NCBI GenBank assembly: GCA_938009235.1
Contig: CALLIK010000009.1
Span: 124,001-188,000, forward strand
From: an uncultured Caulobacterales bacterium
GTDB taxonomy: Bacteria; Pseudomonadota; Alphaproteobacteria; Caulobacterales; Maricaulaceae
Length of the DNA stretch: 64,000 nucleotides
Direction: 5' to 3'
Below, piece after piece: positions 53,886 to 59,531 of the stretch. Position 1 is the stretch's first letter, and every line of letters begins with the position of its first letter. Both the position numbers and the translations under genes were made by a program. The notes under the pieces were generated by a model. It worked only from the letters and a program-made list of their open reading frames with translations, had not been told where the DNA came from and did no database searches.

Positions 53886-56412
<2,527 letters not shown>

Positions 56413-56420
56413 GAAATATT

Positions 56421-57128
56421 ATGCGTAAAATTTTAAAACCTATTACGGCGTGCCTCGTTCTGAGCTTTGCTTTGTCTACGCAGGCGATAGCTCAGGATGC
56501 GGGTGATCGTTACTTTAGCGCGGACAGCATTACCTACGCGACTGAAGCCAAGAGCGATCAGGCCGCCAATGAGCACAAAGACGCCATCAAAAAATTGAAG
56601 AAGGCGCTTAAGCTCAAGAACCTGAAAGCCTATGAAACCTCCGCGATGCGGCAAATGCTGGCGGCTTCATATTATGCAACAGGGAAGCCTGAAAAAGCGA
56701 TTGAGGCTTTTGAAGGCGCAATCGCGGCTGGCGGGCTACGCGAGGCTGAGGTCAGGAGCATAAGGGTCAATGTTGCACAGTTAAATATTGCGGCAAAAAA
56801 CTACGCTGTCGGTGCACAACAATTGGAAACCTATTTCCGCGAAGGCGGCCCGCAAAAGGCAAGCCTCGTCAAACTCGTCATGACATCCCATATGCGCGCG
56901 GGAAACAGACAAGCTGCCGTGCCATGGGCCGACGCCATGGTGCGAAATAACTATGCAAAAACACGCGTCGAACATGACACGCTCTTATACCTCTACGACA
57001 CGCCAGAAAAACGCGCGGACCAAATCAGAGTGGTCACGAGAATGATCCAAATGTGGCCCGAAGACGCAGCGTTGCAGGTTAAATCTGAAGGGTTGAAACG
57101 TAAGGCGAAGTCGGAGGCGGCGGGTTAG
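56421..57128 (+). CDS. Secreted TPR-repeat protein downstream of thiC
   Basis: The 235-residue product has a signal peptide (MRKILKPITACLVLSFALSTQAIAQ) and several TPR-like helix pairs (DAIKKLKKALKLKNLKAYETSAMRQMLAASYYATGKPEKAIEAFEGAIAAGG). It is probably periplasmic. It lies 8 nt after thiC and may share the riboswitch transcript. A direct thiamine role is not evident; it may simply be a read-through passenger. TPR proteins usually mediate protein contact. Confidence 0.8.
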   Translation: MRKILKPITACLVLSFALSTQAIAQDAGDRYFSADSITYATEAKSDQAANEHKDAIKKLKKALKLKNLKAYETSAMRQMLAASYYATGKPEKAIEAFEGAIAAGGLREAEVRSIRVNVAQLNIAAKNYAVGAQQLETYFREGGPQKASLVKLVMTSHMRAGNRQAAVPWADAMVRNNYAKTRVEHDTLLYLYDTPEKRADQIRVVTRMIQMWPEDAALQVKSEGLKRKAKSEAAG

Positions 57129-57187
57129 GAGTTGGCAGACTTGGCGGGGAGTTTTATTTGGAGCCTGAAGGGGAGTCAGTCAGATAA

Positions 57188-57730
57188 ATGATTAGATTTA
57201 TAGAGTGGCGCTTCGAAACACTTGAGATTGAAGACAGAGTTTCCGAAGTGCTGCGCGCTCAATTGCAGATGCTTTTTGAAAATAGACTTTTAGATTTTTT
57301 CAATTCTGGAAGTGCTGTATATTATGATCATGTCATTGATTGTCTTTCGCATTTGGAAGAAAAATCTATTTCTTCCACTAAGGCAGCTACAGCGTTTAAG
57401 CGGGATGAAGAGCTCAAGGGCCTTTGGCACAAACATATCTTAGAGGCTGGAAACTTGTCGCTAAATAGGAACTTGATAAAGACTATGCAGGGTACAAAGG
57501 GCGTTAAGAGAATGGTGGCCGGCATTTCAGATTCACCGACTGCGCAACAATTTTCTCATAGAATGATAAGTAGATTGCAAAATTTAAGCTCTGACAAAAA
57601 AATGACGGGTGAGTGGTTGATTTTCGAGAAATTGAGAGATGGCCAAAATTACTACCACACGATTGCCGCGCACTATGAATGCCCAGCAGAGATAGCGAAA
57701 AGAATAGATAGGTTGACAAAAGATGTTTGA
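57188..57730 (+). CDS. AT-rich orphan protein
   Basis: I recognise no family for this 180-residue cytoplasmic protein. It is helical in character and charged. The C-terminal segment DGQNYYHTIAAHYECPAEIAKRIDRL has the outline of a helix-turn-helix, as in sigma-factor region 4, but weakly. Codon use is unlike the neighbours: many AGA, ATA, TTA and AAT codons and lower GC. It begins the low-density accessory stretch and precedes a cluster of REP-like palindromes. Horizontal acquisition is likely. Confidence 0.6.
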   Translation: MIRFIEWRFETLEIEDRVSEVLRAQLQMLFENRLLDFFNSGSAVYYDHVIDCLSHLEEKSISSTKAATAFKRDEELKGLWHKHILEAGNLSLNRNLIKTMQGTKGVKRMVAGISDSPTAQQFSHRMISRLQNLSSDKKMTGEWLIFEKLRDGQNYYHTIAAHYECPAEIAKRIDRLTKDV

Positions 57731-57813
57731 TTACAGGCTTCTGGTTTAGAACTAGAAATTTGAATGAGGCCATCTTGTTCGGCGTAGCGGTGTTTAGACG
57801 CTTGGGTGATGGC

Positions 57814-57831
57814 CCCCGTGTTTCCACGGGG
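57814..57831. repeat. GC-rich hairpin beside the REP cluster
   Basis: CCCCGTG-TTTC-CACGGGG is a perfect 7-bp inverted repeat 84 nt after the orphan gene. It lies about 20 nt from the first REP-like palindrome and may belong to the same cluster. Confidence 0.5.
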
Positions 57832-57849
57832 TGTGTTGGATTTGAGATA

Positions 57850-57877
57850 GGCCCTCGGGTCAGGCCCGAGGGTGACG
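57850..57877 (+). repeat. REP-like palindrome, copy 1
   Basis: CCCTCGGG-TCAGG-CCCGAGGG followed by TGACG. This is the alphaproteobacterial REP type (CCTCGGGTCAGGCCCGAGG plus TGACG tail). It faces copy 2 in the opposite orientation. Confidence 0.8.
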
Positions 57878-57904
57878 GGGTTAATAGAGGTTGCTCCACA
57901 CTCC

Positions 57905-57932
57905 GTCTTCCTCGGGCTTGACCCGAGGATCC
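57905..57932 (-). repeat. REP-like palindrome, copy 2 (inverted)
   Basis: TCCTCGGG-CTTGA-CCCGAGGA preceded by CGTC on the plus strand, so the minus strand reads TCCTCGGGTCAAGCCCGAGGA plus GACG. It is in inverted orientation to copy 1, making a paired (BIME-like) unit. Confidence 0.8.
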
Positions 57933-57952
57933 ATTTTTCGTTGCAGGCATAG

Positions 57953-58000
57953 ACCCTCGGGTTATGTCGTTTGCAAACAAACAACGACCCGAGGGTGACG
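57953..58000 (+). repeat. REP-like palindrome, copy 3 with an extended stem
   Basis: ACCCTCGGGT and ACCCGAGGGT form the outer stem; an inner part pairs GTCGTTTG with CAAACAACGAC. A TGACGG tail follows as in copies 1 and 4. It ends 30 nt before the GIY-YIG nuclease gene. Confidence 0.75.
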
Positions 58001-58029
58001 GATAGGTTTAAGAGTGATACTCTATAGCT

Positions 58030-58338
58030 ATGCAGCCTTGCGTTTATATGATGGCCTCCAAACGCCTTGGGACTATTTATACGGGTGTGACCTCTGATTT
58101 ACCGTCGCGTGAATGGCAGCATTATTCCAAATCGGACCCAAAGAGTTTTACCGCGAAATATAAAGTTTGGCGTCTGGTTTGGTTTGAAGATCATGAGACA
58201 ATGGCAGAGGCTATTCAGCGGGAAAAATCGCTAAAGCGTTGGTATCGTCAGTGGAAGATTGAGCTAATCGAAAAAGCTAATCCGCACTGGCATCCTCTTG
58301 ACCCGAATACGGGTGAGTTTATTTTTGATTATGATTGA
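58030..58338 (+). CDS. GIY-YIG (URI-type) nuclease family protein flanked by REPs
   Basis: The 102-residue protein is a minimal GIY-YIG domain: CVYMMASKRLGTIYTGVTSDLPSREWQH (the VYM and YTG halves of the motif, then the conserved Arg) and later EAIQREKSLKRWYRQWKIELIEKANP. Stand-alone forms are common in alphaproteobacteria and their role is not settled. Three REP-like palindromes lie within 180 nt upstream and a fourth 78 nt downstream. This arrangement hints at a link between the nuclease and REP spread, similar in idea to RAYT transposases. Confidence 0.88.
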   Translation: MQPCVYMMASKRLGTIYTGVTSDLPSREWQHYSKSDPKSFTAKYKVWRLVWFEDHETMAEAIQREKSLKRWYRQWKIELIEKANPHWHPLDPNTGEFIFDYD

Positions 58339-58415
58339 AGCTTTGGGTCTCAATGCGCCGAATTTTGTTACTTTTGGCTTTGAGCCGTGTGTTTTTGTGC
58401 GTCTCTTTGAGGTGG

Positions 58416-58443
58416 GTCCTCGGGTCAGGCCCGAGGATGACGG
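58416..58443 (+). repeat. REP-like palindrome, copy 4
   Basis: TCCTCGGG-TCAGG-CCCGAGGA followed by TGACGG, almost identical to copy 1. It lies 78 nt after the GIY-YIG gene, so the gene is bracketed by REPs. Confidence 0.8.
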
Positions 58444-58979
58444 TAGAAGAGAGATAGTTTTCAACCGCTTATAAAAAACTCAAAAAATTGCATCCTCGTA
58501 ATGTATTTTCACCCGCATATTTAACTCGTTCTTTCAGACATAGGACAGGCAAGTATACGTGACTGGTCGGTCTGAGAGACGGTGTGTCTAGGTAGGTTTT
58601 GGTAACGCGAAATCTATCGGGGCCTAATTTCGTGTGCTAGACGGGGTGGAACCTCCGCAGTCCAGTATGGCCGTTATTAGTAACGCACCGCCGTAAGGTT
58701 AGTCTTGCGTAAAACATTTTTTCTATTTTGGTACTCCATCGTGAGTGCTGACCTTACGGGCAGTCCTTTTTCACAAGGGCGTTCGCCCTTGATTTGCGGG
58801 TTGCCGCCCGCCAACCCAACCCGCGTGTTGGTACTTGCAGAGGTAAAGCAGTTCCCAAGATGGGCTGTGAGGGCTTTCGCTTGGCTTCGATTTATGTCGT
58901 TTAGCCATTTATAGACGGGTTATTATTCATTAACCTTGTTTGCTAATATGTTAGTAACTCTTGCGCAGTATCGCAACCT
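58444..58979. other. Gene-free accessory stretch with a 12-bp inverted repeat
   Basis: I see no convincing gene. CCGTAAGGTTAG (58692) can pair with CTGACCTTACGG about 50 nt later, which would fold the first half of the repeated element described at 58705. The tracked ORF 58705-58914 is a low-quality frame inside it. Confidence 0.5.
58705..58780 (+). repeat. Imperfect repeated element, copy 1
   Basis: The sequence TTGCGTAAAACA...TATTTTGGTACTCCATCGTGAGT...CC.....CGG.C.GTCC recurs at 62371-62446 (TTGCGTAAAACA...GGGTACTCCGTCGCGAGT...GGACTGTCC). A GGTTAGT precedes both. Identity drops to about 60% towards the 3' end. Nature unknown: mobile relic or structured RNA. Confidence 0.5.
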
Positions 58980-59408
58980 ATGGGGTTAGTGCGGTATATT
59001 TACACGTCAATTCTTGCGGTCGAGTTGCCACCGCAGAATGCTTTTGATACAGCGTCATTGAGTGCGAATGTGTGCGAGAAAATTGGTATTACAGGGCGCA
59101 CATTTGCCAATTGCCATAAAGCTCTCGCGATCACTGAAGGTCCAACGGATATTGTTGAGAAATACTTCCAAGCCGTGAACGCGGACCCTCTCGCGCAAAC
59201 CATTCTCATGCATGTTCAACGTCCCATCAAAGCGCGTGAATTTGAGGATTATTCTGTCTGGCTTAATCTGGGGCAGGCGTTCGAATTTAGCGCATCTGTA
59301 CGAGAGTTGACGCCAGATACATTGGCGCAGGCGTGGCCAGGTGACCTGTCGGCCAAAGTTCGCATTATGGCTGATGTCTACTTGGACCCTGAAATGTTAG
59401 CCGCCTAA
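58980..59408 (+). CDS. Degenerate BLUF-like protein lacking the flavin-site glutamine
   Basis: The 142-residue protein aligns with BLUF domains: VRYIYTS at the N-terminus (conserved Tyr), SLSANVCEKIGITG (Asn position and the ITG turn), HKALAITEGPTDIVEKYFQAVNADPLAQTILMHVQRPIKAREFEDYSVWL (the QVLEG region and the following helix and strand). The glutamine that switches in the photocycle is replaced by Ala (ALAITEG in place of LQVLEG). It is therefore probably light-blind or flavin-free. A second, intact BLUF protein is encoded 6 kb upstream. The start has no clear ribosome-binding site. Confidence 0.65.
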   Translation: MGLVRYIYTSILAVELPPQNAFDTASLSANVCEKIGITGRTFANCHKALAITEGPTDIVEKYFQAVNADPLAQTILMHVQRPIKAREFEDYSVWLNLGQAFEFSASVRELTPDTLAQAWPGDLSAKVRIMADVYLDPEMLAA

Positions 59409-59531
59409 GACGCACCCCCTAAATACGTGCCCCTTAGATATGGGGGGCGTAATGAGCGGGCGTAGGTGTAGGAATATTGCGCTGCGTTTAATTCTGCTAC
59501 TCGGGCCAGAGTAACACAGGTGGGATGATTC

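Follow-up and report, generated by a model that had tools for sequence, protein, structure and literature searches.

A minimal GIY-YIG nuclease gene surrounded by CGTC-tagged palindromes was found in the window (the whole 64-kb stretch of DNA analysed here), and the association of such nucleases with such palindromes is strong and general. A hairpin-specific GIY-YIG nuclease and its CGTC palindrome probably constitute an Ssn-like and REPtron-like mobile unit, whose cleavage and mobilisation we infer.

The nuclease gene and the surrounding palindromes

The gene (58030–58338, + strand) encodes a minimal single-domain protein of 102 aa that matches the Pfam GIY-YIG family (PF01541, E = 1.8e-16). 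On its upstream side, REP1 (57850–57877, minus strand) reads CGTCACCCTCGGGCCTGACCCGAGGGCC on the minus strand, with the TGACG tag at its right side, and its predicted hairpin has an energy of −19.5 kcal/mol. REP2 (57904–57933, plus strand; −14.9 kcal/mol) is an inverted copy, CGTCTTCCTCGGGCTTGACCCGAGGATCCA, and constitutes the left half of a head-to-head dimer, the right half of which is REP3 (57952–58000, minus strand; −25.8 kcal/mol); the latter ends 29 nt ahead of the start codon. On the downstream side, REP4 (CGTCATCCTCGGGCCTGACCCGAGGACC on the minus strand, 58415–58442; −17.5 kcal/mol) begins 79 nt past the stop codon, and its tag faces outward. These coordinates agree with the initial annotation, in which one palindrome lies downstream and three, including an inverted one, are situated in the 180 nt ahead of the gene. 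One point needs correcting: REP3 is not a plain copy, since it combines the stem of the other copies with an enlarged loop of ~24 nt holding an inner hairpin, GTCGTTTG..CAAACAACG.

The palindrome consensus at the window gene is CGTC-AY-CCTCGGG-NNNNN-CCCGAGG. An unpaired CGTC tag, as in CGTC REPs, is present at one end of each palindrome (CGTCAC in REP1, CGTCTT in REP2, CGTCAT in REP4 and TGACG in REP3). The 8–9 bp stem and 4–5 nt loop of that class are found in REP1, REP2 and REP4; REP3 has the stem together with its ~24-nt loop. When the 64-kb window was searched strictly, with a GTCA tag and ≥8 bp of perfect stem required, only REP1 and REP4 were detected; no Rfam structured RNA was matched within 57000–59500 at E values up to 1. 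By analogy with units in Ensifer, whose edges of homology fall at the tags, and with the gain and loss at an orthologous site in the genus of genome G191, the outward-tagged REP2, the gene and the outward-tagged REP4 are considered here as a putative mobile unit (57904–58442, no strand assigned).

Several observations were made in and around this region. The small inner hairpin (~GTCGTTTG..CAAACAACG; 57963–57990 in the window) also enlarges the loops of differently stemmed palindromes in other genomes (L287, L279 and L096), as if it had been inserted into palindrome loops. A 180-aa ORF (57188–57730) with no Pfam or NCBIfam match lies immediately 5′ of the putative unit, and the ~540 bp separating REP4 from a BLUF-domain gene (58443–58979) contain neither a convincing gene nor an Rfam match. 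Related nuclease-palindrome units are located ~1–5 kb away from thiC (54472–56412 in the window, with L076, L074 and L073; also L097, L128 and L148). These thiC-adjacent units occur in several genera, with palindromes that differ by genome, and may reflect either a preferred location or chance.

As for the protein, the PF01541 match is accompanied by the catalytic Tyr/Tyr/Arg/Glu set and by the element order expected of the GIY-YIG superfamily in an AlphaFold model (mean pLDDT 86). Residues Y6, Y17, R27, H31, E65 and N84 are invariant across 20 relatives, and in the model residues 58–83 form one long helix bearing the catalytic Glu65. The protein of Robiginitomaculum antarcticum, which belongs to the host GTDB family, is 72% identical to that of the window. 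The genes are under purifying selection (dN/dS ~0.1 where tested), and their number varies by species (1–9). No specific NCBIfam model matches these proteins; the nearest solved structures, in both sequence and fold, are the UPF0213 proteins 1zg2 and 1ywl.

Association and pairing of nuclease and palindrome

Pattern searches of the 2.79-Mb alphaproteobacterial host genome gave ~12 palindromes with the window stem, and 4 of them lie within 600 bp of the window gene (Poisson P ~2e-12 for this clustering). The remaining ones are head-to-head pairs of ~75 bp at five loci (C3, C5, C7, C10 and C11), and the predominance of head-to-head dimers known for CGTC REPs is thus also seen here. A high copy number is typical of CGTC REPs, though not a strict requirement; the family sizes listed in PMC3733652 extend from 20 or fewer units to thousands, so that the low number here does not argue against membership. 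A Y1/RAYT transposase was searched for in the same genome: no PF01797 match was found there, while the search was positive in 5 of 14 control genomes, and a RAYT was therefore rejected as the partner. The gene between the palindromes is a GIY-YIG gene and not the HUH/Y1 transposase gene of a RAYT REPtron. The initial annotation had held that its proposal would fall if the palindromes were evenly spread or if a RAYT gene elsewhere carried them. Counting in the genome and in relatives revealed instead an uneven spread concentrated at the GIY-YIG gene, and such a RAYT is absent.

The generality of the association was examined by a tag-free bracketing test, in which one repeat of at least 14 nt has to be present within 300 nt on both sides of the gene. 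Eighty loci were gathered from the host GTDB family, and the other ORFs at these loci served as controls. Bracketing was found for 74% of the 77 GIY-YIG relatives and 1.1% of the 545 control ORFs, and for 65% and 0%, respectively, when at least 16 nt was required; the difference between relatives and controls in this family is highly significant (Fisher P 3e-56), and some relatives are without a clean tagged palindrome. Since only ~1% of the control ORFs are bracketed, a chance crowding of intergenic palindromes was rejected. Among named loci, mostly from Rhizobiales, the corresponding values were 58% of 36 genes and 1.7% of 241 control ORFs. In a Pseudomonadota-wide sample (from 399 genomes), 24 of 28 genes were bracketed, mostly by CGTCATTCCCGCGAAGGCGGGAATCCA, which resembles the CGTC-1/dRS3 type of PMC3733652. 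True YhbQ-like GIY-YIG orthologues of the same GTDB family, used as a negative control, were not bracketed (0/7): the YhbQ-like gene of the host genome and its six closest orthologues have no flanking palindromes, so that identity with UPF0213/YhbQ, which the present proteins resemble in fold and size, was rejected.

When the sequences of the two partners are compared, the nuclease and the palindrome look like cognate pairs. Within one genome, the window gene is accompanied by CCTCGGG palindromes and a 59%-identical paralogue by CCTAGGG palindromes; in genome G055, each of three genes has a stem of its own, and differing paralogue palindromes were also found in G059, G014 and others. Over 48 pairs, the distance between proteins correlates with that between palindromes (Mantel r = 0.52, 0/5000 permutations): the palindromes differ by 3 edits for proteins of different genomes that are more than 70% identical, and by 10 edits at 50–60% identity. 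The protein tree has one clade for each stem type. The CCTCGGG-type palindromes occur in 11 of 137 genomes, chiefly in those having the matching nuclease. An exception is G005, in which six CCTCGGG palindromes exist and a related nuclease is near none of them; these copies indicate that palindromes can persist without an adjoining gene. The co-variation is partly due to shared ancestry, and the same-genome paralogues argue against ancestry alone. A count of stem co-variation was also strong, yet it was not regarded as independent evidence, because the palindromes came from a detector that demands a stem. A cognate repeat tied to the gene and a specificity that differs among homologues, which are the marks of the Ssn family, are thus both seen here.

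The pairing was also followed along the protein. Extra loci were fetched with short peptides of the window protein, mainly WYRQWKIE, in a manner blind to palindromes. The Rhizobium, Ensifer and Rhodobacteraceae proteins obtained in this way show ~55% identity, many of the rhizobial ones share AIQREKSLKRWYRQWKIELIE, and the loci having a detectable tagged palindrome carry the CCTCGGG type of the window. At the corresponding place, the proteins with ATTCCCGCG palindromes mostly have a REKxxKKWNRxWKLRLIE-like segment, and those with CCTAGGG palindromes have REKSLKRYxRQWKINLIEE. A partial Mantel test excluded the peptide-selected loci and was relied upon over a same-stem residue comparison, which includes them. 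This test located the palindrome signal in residues 46–75 (0/1000 permutations for 46–60 and likewise for 61–75), with no such signal in residues 1–15 and 76–90. Separately, at one syntenic locus (L078 against L080, L081 and L086), either a TTACCGG-type or a CCTAGGG-type nuclease-palindrome pair is present depending on the species, which suggests that the pair was replaced there as a cassette.

Copying, inversion and loss of the unit

The repeat-gene-repeat unit behaves, as judged from alignments of its copies, as a discrete element bounded by the tags. Ensifer adhaerens SD006 has two 375-bp copies that are 96.5% identical, and the similarity spans exactly from the left CGTC to the right GACG. 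In G191, which belongs to another alphaproteobacterial family, copies lie on different contigs and their edges are at or within ~4 nt of the tags. Three dispersed copies are found in R. antarcticum (an intact one, a decayed one and a 16-codon remnant): they have the palindrome, the leader and the gene in common and are preceded by unrelated sequence, which places the left edge in the REP. Regarding orientation, the gene in G119 is flipped between its palindromes relative to that in G118, with syntenic flanks. In the genus of G191, one orthologous intergenic site differs among species: two carry the full unit, a third has intact palindromes around an inverted gene with an internal deletion, a single palindrome is present in another and a fragment in yet another, and the site is empty in at least four.

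A discrete unit with fixed ends, its presence at unrelated sites and the existence of empty sites were thus found for the relatives and not for the window copy itself. For the latter, G053 provides an approximate empty site: the TPR and BLUF orthologues flank a diverged spacer that contains neither the gene nor a palindrome. No target-site duplication was seen at the copied units, and no clean insertion of a REP emerged when near-identical pairs of home-family loci were compared for indels. Host recombination between the repeats could be the source of some of the duplications and inversions.

Two further observations concern units of this kind. In L075 (R. antarcticum), the two flanking palindromes have the same additional segment on the inner side of the tag, GGTGCGCCGGTTC in one and its reverse complement in the other, which gives the impression of concerted evolution of the two ends. 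Furthermore, a second subfamily of small GIY-YIG proteins, which is nearer to YhbQ (L221, L223–L230, L232 and L234; L302–L304), is bracketed by a different repeat of the CCTCATCCTGAGG ... CTTCGAGACG type, and G031 has three dispersed copies of its unit (475–534 bp, 96–97% identical). This subfamily and its repeat look like a second nuclease-repeat mobile unit.

Possible mechanism, alternatives and implications

In the mechanism that we propose, the product of the window gene would be a GIY-YIG endonuclease specific for hairpins, with the flanking CGTC-tagged palindrome as its cognate target, and the unit would have outward-facing tags at both ends with the nuclease gene inside. The enzyme would recognise the palindrome as a single-stranded hairpin (on the lagging strand, in a repair intermediate or in incoming DNA), presumably via the long helix of residues 58–83, and would nick it at or close to the CGTC tag; the enzyme class, the palindromic target and the analogy with Ssn, reportedly specific for single-stranded repeats, point to these two steps. 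Nicking would let the unit be copied to, or lost from, new sites, with the nuclease as the putative driver. The gene-less head-to-head dimers (~75–90 bp) would then be derivatives of the unit, likewise copied or lost. The initial annotation had proposed that a nuclease takes the place of a RAYT: the general association, the co-varying pairs, the copying, inversion and loss as a block and the lack of a Y1 transposase support this placement, and the cutting and moving of hairpins are the part that we infer.

An alternative is an Ssn-like host system without self-mobility, which would cut single-stranded palindromes and thereby modulate recombination or DNA uptake; the nearby palindromes would be docking or regulatory sites, and the spread would be due to ordinary recombination and horizontal transfer. 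The enzyme type and repeat type are the same as those reported for Ssn and NTS in Neisseria, purifying selection is strong, and host recombination could yield both inversion and duplication. Moreover, a Methylotenera relative has the dRS3-like CGTCATTCCCGCGAAGGCGGGAAT, and the Neisseria CGTC-1 repeats are equated with dRS3 in PMC3733652. We nevertheless regard such a system as unlikely: the duplicate units stop exactly at the tags, several unlinked copies exist within one genome, the gene number ranges from 1 to 9 across species, and the full, decayed, solo and empty states at one site look like those of a mobile element and not of a fixed host locus.

It is very improbable that the palindromes function as RNA hairpins (an attenuator, a terminator or an mRNA stability element) in autoregulation or termination instead of serving the protein as DNA targets. 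The predicted hairpins are indeed stable (−15 to −26 kcal/mol), one of them ends 29 nt ahead of the start codon, and REPs are often transcribed (PMC3733652). However, identical palindromes are found as dimers at unrelated loci, the gene is found flipped between its palindromes, and the stems co-vary with protein residues, which would be needless for a plain terminator. The known partnership of RAYTs with GTAG REPs would favour the idea that a RAYT or another transposase moves the palindromes while the GIY-YIG gene rides along. This is hardly credible in view of the host genome without a Y1 transposase, the relatives, none of which was seen with a RAYT flanked by these palindromes, and the gene inside the unit, which is of the GIY-YIG type throughout and fits its palindrome; no CGTC-flanked RAYT was found in PMC3733652 either. 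Finally, alphaproteobacteria frequently have CGTC REPs in their intergenic regions (PMC3733652), and palindromes might accumulate passively in the intergenic space near any small dispensable gene. The probability of such a coincidence is almost negligible, considering the ~1% bracketing of control ORFs at the same loci against 74%, the mere ~12 palindrome copies in the host genome and the cognate pairing.

The mobile unit that we favour can be compared with known systems. RAYTs are the partners of GTAG REPs. As in RAYT/REP REPtrons and REPINs, a single gene is flanked by inverted copies from the palindrome family that belongs to it, head-to-head dimers without a gene are found elsewhere, and several cognate pairs exist per genome; the differences are that the enzyme is a GIY-YIG protein here and an HUH tyrosine transposase there, and that the tag is CGTC here and GTAG there. 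Ssn is reportedly a GIY-YIG family that is site-specific for single-stranded NTS repeats in Neisseria, and relatives of diverse specificities are said to exist. On this description, the two are alike in having a small single-domain GIY-YIG enzyme linked to a short-repeat family; for the present units, the evidence further suggests copying, flipping and loss between the tags. The Ssn family lowers the novelty of the nuclease-repeat pairing, and the idea of a nuclease with a REP is less isolated than the initial annotation had assumed. I-TevI-type GIY-YIG homing endonucleases likewise have a GIY-YIG cleavage module joined to a mobile DNA segment; unlike them, the present proteins are only ~90–100 aa long, have no DNA-binding tail or intron and are bounded by palindromes.

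The repeats themselves share with CGTC REPs the unpaired CGTC tag, the 8–9 bp stem, the 5-nt loop, the CCA-like tail, the predominance of head-to-head dimers and the alphaproteobacterial host (PMC3733652). They are unlike those REPs in that a GIY-YIG nuclease flanks each family, that the loop of REP3 is enlarged and that the copies number ~12. Every alphaproteobacterial order has CGTC REPs, which also occur outside this class, and a dedicated transposase was reported to be absent in the survey that defined them (Di Nocera, De Gregorio and Rocco 2013; PMC3733652). A literature search for GIY-YIG linked with REP or dRS3 found no such paper, the Ssn paper being outside the searched set. A broader reading, which we offer tentatively and with somewhat less than even confidence, is that these units may be minimal autonomous mobile elements of a new class. 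Such an element of ~375–600 bp would consist of one GIY-YIG nuclease of ~90–100 aa between inverted CGTC palindromes, would nick hairpins independently of HUH, DDE or recombinase enzymes, would be the source of CGTC REPs as gene-less derivatives, and would have its hairpin choice set by the helix of residues 61–75.

The GIY-YIG nuclease is a concrete candidate for the partner of CGTC REPs and could explain this widespread partnerless class of repeats. With a candidate enzyme, several enzyme-palindrome pairs per genome and a protein segment that tracks the palindrome, the spread of CGTC REPs is now directly testable. The results also suggest that nature offers a large collection of small nucleases that are specific for hairpins and have readable targets; as tools for single-stranded DNA, such enzymes would be useful.
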